Positions 38,803 through 38,928 of a stretch of 64,000 nt of DNA are shown here, piece by piece. The DNA is from Alphaproteobacteria bacterium. Its GTDB lineage: Bacteria; Pseudomonadota; Alphaproteobacteria; UBA8366; Aestuariispiraceae. Where the stretch lies: assembly GCA_033344895.1 (NCBI GenBank), contig JAWPMN010000001.1, forward strand, positions 248,001 to 312,000, written 5' to 3'. The position numbers and the translations under genes are program-made. Numbering within the stretch: position 1 is the stretch's first letter; every line of letters starts with the position of its first letter. Under the pieces are notes generated by a model. It was given only the letters and a program-made list of their open reading frames with translations. It did not search any database and was not told the origin of the DNA.

Positions 38803-38928
38803 GATTCTTCATGAGCCCTAGTGCTTGCCAGAGCCCGAATCATGATTCTTTCGAGAGTCGCGGTCAACAAGTATCTGATTCGACTTGAATTTTTCTACAT
38901 ATAGAGTCCCGACCGCGAAGCAGGACTC
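38803..38928. promoter_or_regulatory. GANTC cluster and candidate promoter upstream of ccrM
   Basis: Seven GANTC sites start at 38803, 38837, 38844, 38855, 38877, 38904 and 38924, with another inside the gene at 38781. On the minus strand, TTGACC (near 38861-38866) and CATGAT, 17 bases apart, form a candidate promoter with GANTC sites in the spacer and at the -10. Methylation-sensitive control by CcrM itself, perhaps through GcrA, is expected by analogy with Caulobacter. Confidence 0.6.

Follow-up and report, generated by a model that had tools for sequence, protein, structure and literature searches.

GANTC sites in the predicted core promoter of ccrM, with NrdR-like boxes upstream, in a relative of Pacificispira spongiicola

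Introduction

The ccrM promoter of Caulobacter bears two GANTC sites, targets of the methyltransferase itself, which affect its shut-off. The presence of own-target methylation sites in a ccrM promoter is known in principle, and methylation "most probably" affects ccrM (PMC3973325). In the same organism, CtrA activates ccrM (PMC3667746, PMC2877005), while GcrA prefers methylated GANTC, covers the fully methylated ctrAP1 from -35 to -10 (PMC3667746) and acts together with domain 2 of sigma-70 (PMC3667746, PMC7403470). Regarding timing, GANTC between -35 and -10 marks Caulobacter start sites whose activation comes at 40-60 min of the cycle, when start sites with GANTC outside this region are lowest, which favours activation over repression by core sites; GANTC lies within 50 bp of only 31% of the GcrA-bound cell-cycle start sites (PMC4287350). 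Up to five or six GANTC have been counted in the ctrA promoters of some orders (PMC8116508), and GANTC before cell-cycle genes was also counted in Brilli 2010 (PMC2877005), with no conclusion on control. NrdR proteins, for their part, bind pairs of boxes with a spacer of 14-17 bp (PMC12051234), and for Caulobacter an nrdR deletion strain has been described (PMC12186491).

The ccrM gene described here is located in a window of 64,000 nucleotides, which comprises bases 248001-312000 of a 4.64-Mb chromosome from a member of the genus of Pacificispira spongiicola. Like the GcrA/CcrM-dependent sigma-70 promoters of Caulobacter (ctrA P1, mipZ, podJ), its predicted promoter has GANTC sites within or next to the -35/-10 region, and both gcrA and ccrM are encoded in the genome; unlike them, it is the promoter of ccrM itself and possesses three core sites, one of which is locked to base -12 in many families. 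As in the Caulobacter ccrM promoter, the methyltransferase gene bears its own target sites, but there are seven of them, three in the core, with NrdR-like boxes upstream and no exact CtrA box in the family. The locus also resembles the GANTC-rich ctrA promoters in having several sites before a cell-cycle gene, although the survey, in the part concerned, counted sites before ctrA, not ccrM, and without their register (PMC8116508). Finally, its outer part is similar to the NrdR operators of nrd genes, with two 16-bp palindromes approximately three helical turns apart and the same letter preferences, but it stands upstream of a methyltransferase gene and carries GANTC in the box arms.

The ccrM Locus and Its GANTC Sites

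The gene ccrM (37720..38802, minus strand) encodes a DNA adenine methyltransferase of 360 amino acids, with an N6_N4_Mtase domain (6.8e-72) followed by a RAMA domain (1.3e-17). Upstream of it on the same strand is rnhB (38928..39572), coding for ribonuclease HII (RNase_HII, 2.6e-37), which leaves a spacer at 38803-38927; no intrinsic terminator was found in 38700-39000. The initial annotation had counted seven GANTC sites in 38803-38928, and all of them are present, starting at 38803, 38837, 38844, 38855, 38877, 38904 and 38924, or at -5, -39, -46, -57, -79, -106 and -126 relative to the ccrM ATG. Two further sites just inside the gene, at 38781 (+17) and 38729, bring the count to nine in 200 bp.

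The density of this array was compared with 464 kb of the same genome (10% of it), consisting of the 64-kb window and a 400-kb sample of twenty 20-kb stretches. The expectation of one GANTC per 256 bases, from which the initial annotation started, proved too generous, as the motif is depleted: the window contains 138 sites compared to 333 +/- 16 in dinucleotide shuffles, and the 400-kb sample contains 934, or 2.3 per kb. The spacer has 48% GC against 63%; when shuffled, it holds on average 1.33 GANTC, and seven are reached in 1 of 20,000 shuffles. It is the densest GANTC cluster in the 464 kb, the runner-up 126-bp stretches having four sites each, one in the window and two in the 400-kb sample. 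Other clusters were considered as further targets and set aside, since the 400-kb sample offered these two four-site places only, of which, by eye, one lies within a long open frame and the other across the start of an open frame. Within the window, the second densest cluster is formed by five sites in 136 bp (7577-7712); it falls within the open frame 6986-8143, which by eye is ligand-gated ion channel-like.

For the comparison with relatives, ccrM matches at E <= 0.001 were obtained in 129 of 144 related genomes, some of them merely distant or partial, and loci were analysed from 109 of the 129, the other 20, whose matches were weak or partial, being left out. One genome whose contig begins 39 bp before ccrM (G010) and the second ccrM copy of another (G016) were then dropped, resulting in 108 genomes from 71 families. 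A second set comprises 80 named ccrM loci, the best 80 of 546 candidates, many from Rhodobacterales and with some genomes shared with the first set. The gene starts were set by homology with a script, and some are possibly wrong (e.g., L015). The two ccrM copies of G016 (C1:100867-101934 and C1:3287746-3288813; L113 and L114) are 3.2 Mb apart, with equal scores, the same N-termini and the same GANTC spacing, which would be an unusual duplication unless it reflects an artefact of assembly. In addition, a contig labelled Marinimicrobia (L086) carries an alphaproteobacterial-like rnhB-ccrM pair and is probably mis-binned.

Conservation in close relatives, on which the initial annotation had staked its proposal beforehand, is upheld: there are six or seven GANTC within 150 bp in every one of the six genus members, all of which share five of the seven sites at the aligned place. 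The GA and TC letters of the sites are invariant in these six genomes at 24/28 positions, compared to 53/98 of the other spacer positions (Fisher p = 0.0017), a level of invariance equalled by 4 of 125 cyclic shifts. The enrichment before ccrM extends to the whole class, as seen in equal 260-bp windows for ccrM upstream regions and controls: at least two sites in 126 bp occur in 84/108 genomes against 44/538 control windows, at least four in 38/108 against 0/538, and at least six in 14/108 against 0/538.

The individual sites differ in how widely they are kept. The sites at -46 (38844..38848) and at -39 (GATTC, 38837..38841) are found in 13/13 family genomes with upstream DNA, whereas the site at -57 (38855..38859) is aligned in 9/13, moved by a few bases in three (L003, L007, L008) and absent from one (L006). 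Further upstream, the GACTC at -106 (38904..38908) is present in 12/13 and the GAGTC at -126 (38924..38928), lying over the rnhB stop codon, in 8/13. The site at -79 (38877..38881), upstream of the -35 element, is preserved in 6/6 genus members and, among the 13 family genomes compared, has its aligned place in the genus only. The one touching the ccrM start codon (-5, 38803..38807) is kept in 5/6 of the genus and 7/13 of the family, and the one in ccrM codons 6-8 (+17, 38781..38785) in 6/6 of the genus. Judging from these alignments, the sites at -79, -5 and +17 represent additions that are preserved chiefly in the genus. At -46, GA and TC are fixed in the family while N varies between A and C, and N is variable at -57 as well, which fits selection for methylation and not for one fixed longer sequence.

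The Core Promoter

A consensus scan predicted one sigma-70 promoter on the right strand (minus), TTGACC-N17-CATGAT, with the -35 element at 38862..38867 and the -10 element at 38839..38844, separated by 17 bp. The sites that the initial annotation had placed in or near a candidate promoter can thereby be assigned: three GANTC are located within this predicted promoter, one directly after the -35 element (-57), one adjoining the -10 box (-46) and one that overlaps this box at its end (-39). The first base of CATGAT is the C of a GANTC, so that the middle core site ends with its last C at base -12. In the alignment of the 13 family genomes, TTGAC is invariant and is followed by GANTC and then by GANTC-A-N-GATTC.

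To characterise this register, all TTGA-to-GANTC distances from 0 to 35 were scanned in the upstream regions, with no spacing imposed. The arrangement TTGA-N15-GANTC was found in 59/108 genomes, 60/80 named loci and 0/426 control segments, while the neighbouring distances are nearly empty (N14, 1/108 and 0/80; N16, 4/108 and 0/80); smaller peaks at offsets of 4-6, 21-22 and 32 correspond to the other sites. The A at -11 and the T at -7 are the two most important bases of a -10 element, and both are present in 59/59 and 60/60 of the locked promoters although neither was imposed. Where both core sites exist, the first GANTC floats while the total distance is constant in 51/55 promoters. Moreover, within the 464 kb of this genome, the core TTGA-GANTC-GANTC occurs a single time, at ccrM. 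Present in 28/71 families and missing from 49/108 genomes and 20/80 named loci, the lock appears to be an ancient trait of ccrM promoters, with the seven-site array as an elaboration upon it. At the predicted transcript start (38824-38833), the minus strand reads CTCTGGCAAG, and similar motifs exist in most of the family at varying distances from the promoter and the ATG.

A possible reader of the mark is GcrA, whose gene lies at 4.470 Mb in the same genome. GcrA was scored as present at E <= 0.001, four of the 103 positives lying under the curated cut-off, and the lock is present in 51/88 GcrA-positive and 8/20 GcrA-negative genomes; with a second GcrA profile, 19 of the 20 negatives stay negative and one (G101) gives a weak match (E = 0.012). 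The locked promoters in genomes where GcrA was not detected suggest that it may not be the sole reader or that divergent GcrAs were missed. Fewer than two GANTC in the 126 bp upstream of ccrM are found in 18/88 GcrA-positive genomes, and GcrA presence is a weak predictor of the sites. The gcrA gene lies approximately 2 kb from a ribonucleotide reductase gene (G000:C1:4470477-4474078), and matches to both families are 2-3 kb apart on one contig in the five other genomes of the genus. A second locus of the same genome (G000:C1:749447-749854) has parts similar to the GcrA N-terminus and C-terminus within an open frame of 370 codons.

Other cell-cycle regulators were also searched for. The exact CtrA box TTAA-N7-TTAA was found within 250 bp upstream of ccrM in 0/13 family promoters and 1/108 overall, a degenerate box being beyond the reach of such a search, and CtrA control of the kind known from Caulobacter was set aside for the family on these grounds. 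DnaA-like boxes, similarly rejected, occur in 2/13 family promoters (L009, L014) and 7/108 overall, and are absent from the promoter of the window. The GC skew of 21 stretches, together with the place of hemE, predicts an origin near 1.65 Mb and a terminus near 3.9 Mb, with dnaA apart from the origin at 1.487 Mb. Located at 0.286 Mb, ccrM would then be approximately 59% along its replication arm.

NrdR-Like Boxes Upstream

Under the two outermost sites are two 16-bp palindromes, box 1 (38925..38940, ACTCTAGATATTGAGC on the plus strand, score 16.5), which overlaps the 3' end of rnhB, and box 2 (38892..38907, TTTCTACATATAGAGT on the plus strand, score 14.3). They are overlapped in their arms by the GANTC at -126 and -106, respectively, which flank 15 bp. 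The spacer between the boxes is 17 bp, within the 14-17 bp range of NrdR, and the palindromes match the boxes of nrd genes; the downstream gene, however, is ccrM and not a ribonucleotide reductase gene. For training the scoring matrix, 60 ribonucleotide reductase loci were scanned; most of them have no convincing box pair, and 26 boxes ahead of nrd genes, at 15 of the loci, were selected by eye with an assumed NrdR consensus, which a later test in Escherichia coli supported. In that test on strain K-12, nrdA (26.9) and nrdH (33.1) gave the best pairs of two 12-kb stretches that had been chosen to contain them.

With this matrix, the ccrM pair (30.8) ranks first in the 464 kb, followed by a pair scoring 22.2, and the pair of the genome's own nrdJ, added to the scan, reaches 22.0. 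By eye, the second-best pair of the genome sample is near helix-turn-helix and integrase-like frames and not near nrd genes. Three ribonucleotide reductase genes were recognised by match in this genome, with boxes before one (L237) and no convincing pair at another (L221). The region upstream of nrdJ (L237:708-813) contains several NrdR-like boxes, starting at 708, 750, 767 and 798, which would allow more than one pair.

Among the relatives, a box scoring at least 14 precedes ccrM in 42/108 genomes, leaving 66/108 without, compared to 6/538 control windows, and a pair of at least 18 is found in 32/108 against 0/538, the ccrM windows being 300 bp and the control windows 260 bp; a looser cut of 12 yields 49/108 and 43/538. 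By the assumed consensus, boxes of at least 18 exist in 113 out of 189 regions upstream of ccrM (a set without L013 and with some genomes included twice), where 6.5 are expected from shuffles. The nrdR gene is present in 14/14 family genomes and 126/144 relatives, and the few genomes with a strong box and no detected nrdR (G038, G141) are all incomplete assemblies.

As for the overlap with methylation sites, GANTC lies in 26/57 ccrM boxes scoring at least 13 and in 0/30 boxes from 15 nrd loci, and 25 of the 26 share one mirrored position for it in the arm, with the sequence GACTC or GAGTC. Nineteen of the 26 belong to the family of the window and are not independent, while the remaining seven come from five families. 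The boxes are not a by-product of GANTC, as scores of 18.0-22.7 are reached in five genomes of one family (f2) where the 126-bp count of GANTC is below two; altogether, 24 genomes have fewer than two GANTC, and a box of at least 12 is found in only 8 of them. Boxes are also present where no rnhB match lies upstream (L009, L014).

Proposed Mode of Action and Alternatives

We propose, with a probability of about 0.6, a ccrM promoter that senses replication through target sites in its core, probably read by GcrA, and that works without the CtrA box of Caulobacter. From the sequence, register and conservation of the sites, we infer every step of binding and timing. The C at -12 would weaken the -10 element, so that the promoter would need help, and this help could be given by GcrA, which would bind the methylated GANTC together with the sigma-70 domain holding the -10; a GANTC at the edge of the -10 would place GcrA where opening can be assisted. 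Passage of the fork would leave the promoter hemi-methylated and change GcrA binding, switching ccrM on, and the new CcrM would re-methylate the sites, ending the pulse. Given the position of ccrM between origin and terminus, its expression would be timed to mid or late replication without a CtrA box. As the outer sites overlap the NrdR-like pair, ccrM is probably tied to dNTP supply too, and the whole can be pictured as a putative two-layer operator, with an NrdR-type pair upstream, a GANTC-gated sigma-70 promoter downstream and methylation sites in both.

The strongest competing explanation concerns the outer part, which might be foremost an NrdR operator: NrdR, sensing ATP and dATP, would control ccrM along with the ribonucleotide reductase genes, and methylation of the arms would alter its binding. 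From the boxes we consider the odds of this to be even. In its favour are the first rank of the ccrM pair under a matrix trained on nrd genes only, the frequency of strong pairs before ccrM and their absence from the controls, nrdR throughout the family, a spacer within the bound range (PMC12051234), the arm GANTC restricted to ccrM boxes, and the persistence of boxes where GANTC is scarce or the rnhB match is missing. However, a position upstream of the -35 element instead of over it, as these boxes have, is uncommon for a simple repressor, and the training rests on an assumed consensus and boxes chosen by eye from a quarter of the loci; moreover, 66 genomes have no ccrM box at the cut of 14, the looser cut brings in many controls, most overlapping boxes come from one family, and G038 and G141 combine a box with no detected nrdR.

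The remaining alternatives concern the array itself. The initial annotation suggested that the dense array could act as a whole, either by setting a sharp methylation threshold or through cooperative GcrA binding, and this agrees with the six or seven sites in every genus member and with the 14 genomes having at least six, which belong to 6 families, so that such arrays probably arose more than once. We regard it as unlikely, since spacings of 14-60 bp have no helical phasing (84 distances, one locus per family), save the core pair at 9-12 bp, the outer sites are partly lost at the family level, with classes of differing conservation, and two or three core sites suffice in many relatives; a threshold or cooperativity is possible for the extra sites, but is not favoured by the spacing analysis. 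Less probable still is a docking or titration zone at which CcrM would attach to the promoter of its gene and act there as a direct repressor: the sites do touch the start codon and run into the gene, but we know of no repressor role for CcrM, and a register fixed to the -10 suggests a reader working with sigma. An origin by chance or composition would rely on the AT-rich spacer, set in a GANTC-poor genome, and it is the most improbable of all, given how rarely shuffled spacers reach seven sites, the class-wide enrichment and the fixed register; conservation rules it out.

The replication-sensing core promoter is the preferred reading. The suggestion of the initial annotation that ccrM senses its own mark is partly supported, by the promoter sites, their conservation, the enrichment across the class and the presence of gcrA, while a uniform array acting as a threshold is not favoured, the sites falling into classes of differing conservation. 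It had included neither the lock to the -10 nor the NrdR-like boxes under the outer sites.

Implications for Alphaproteobacteria

The open-access literature searched yielded no description of the -12 lock and none of NrdR acting on ccrM, although RegPrecise and Rodionov & Gelfand 2005 may list ccrM. More tentatively than the reading above, and with somewhat less than an even chance, ccrM may belong to the NrdR regulon across a large part of the Alphaproteobacteria, and NrdR boxes may be fused with CcrM sites in this family, so that a single set of bases would report both methylation after replication and dNTP/ATP status, upstream of a core promoter in which a CcrM site makes up part of the -10. 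Such an operator would link DNA methylation with DNA-precursor metabolism, a link not found in the open-access literature.

The proposed promoter offers a concrete answer to how ccrM may be timed outside the model species; 107 of the 108 ccrM upstream regions have no exact CtrA box. Here, a methylation site forms the upstream edge of the -10 box, an arrangement kept in 28 of 71 families. If the proposal is true, re-methylation of the chromosome would be tied to DNA-precursor supply as well as to fork passage, without CtrA.
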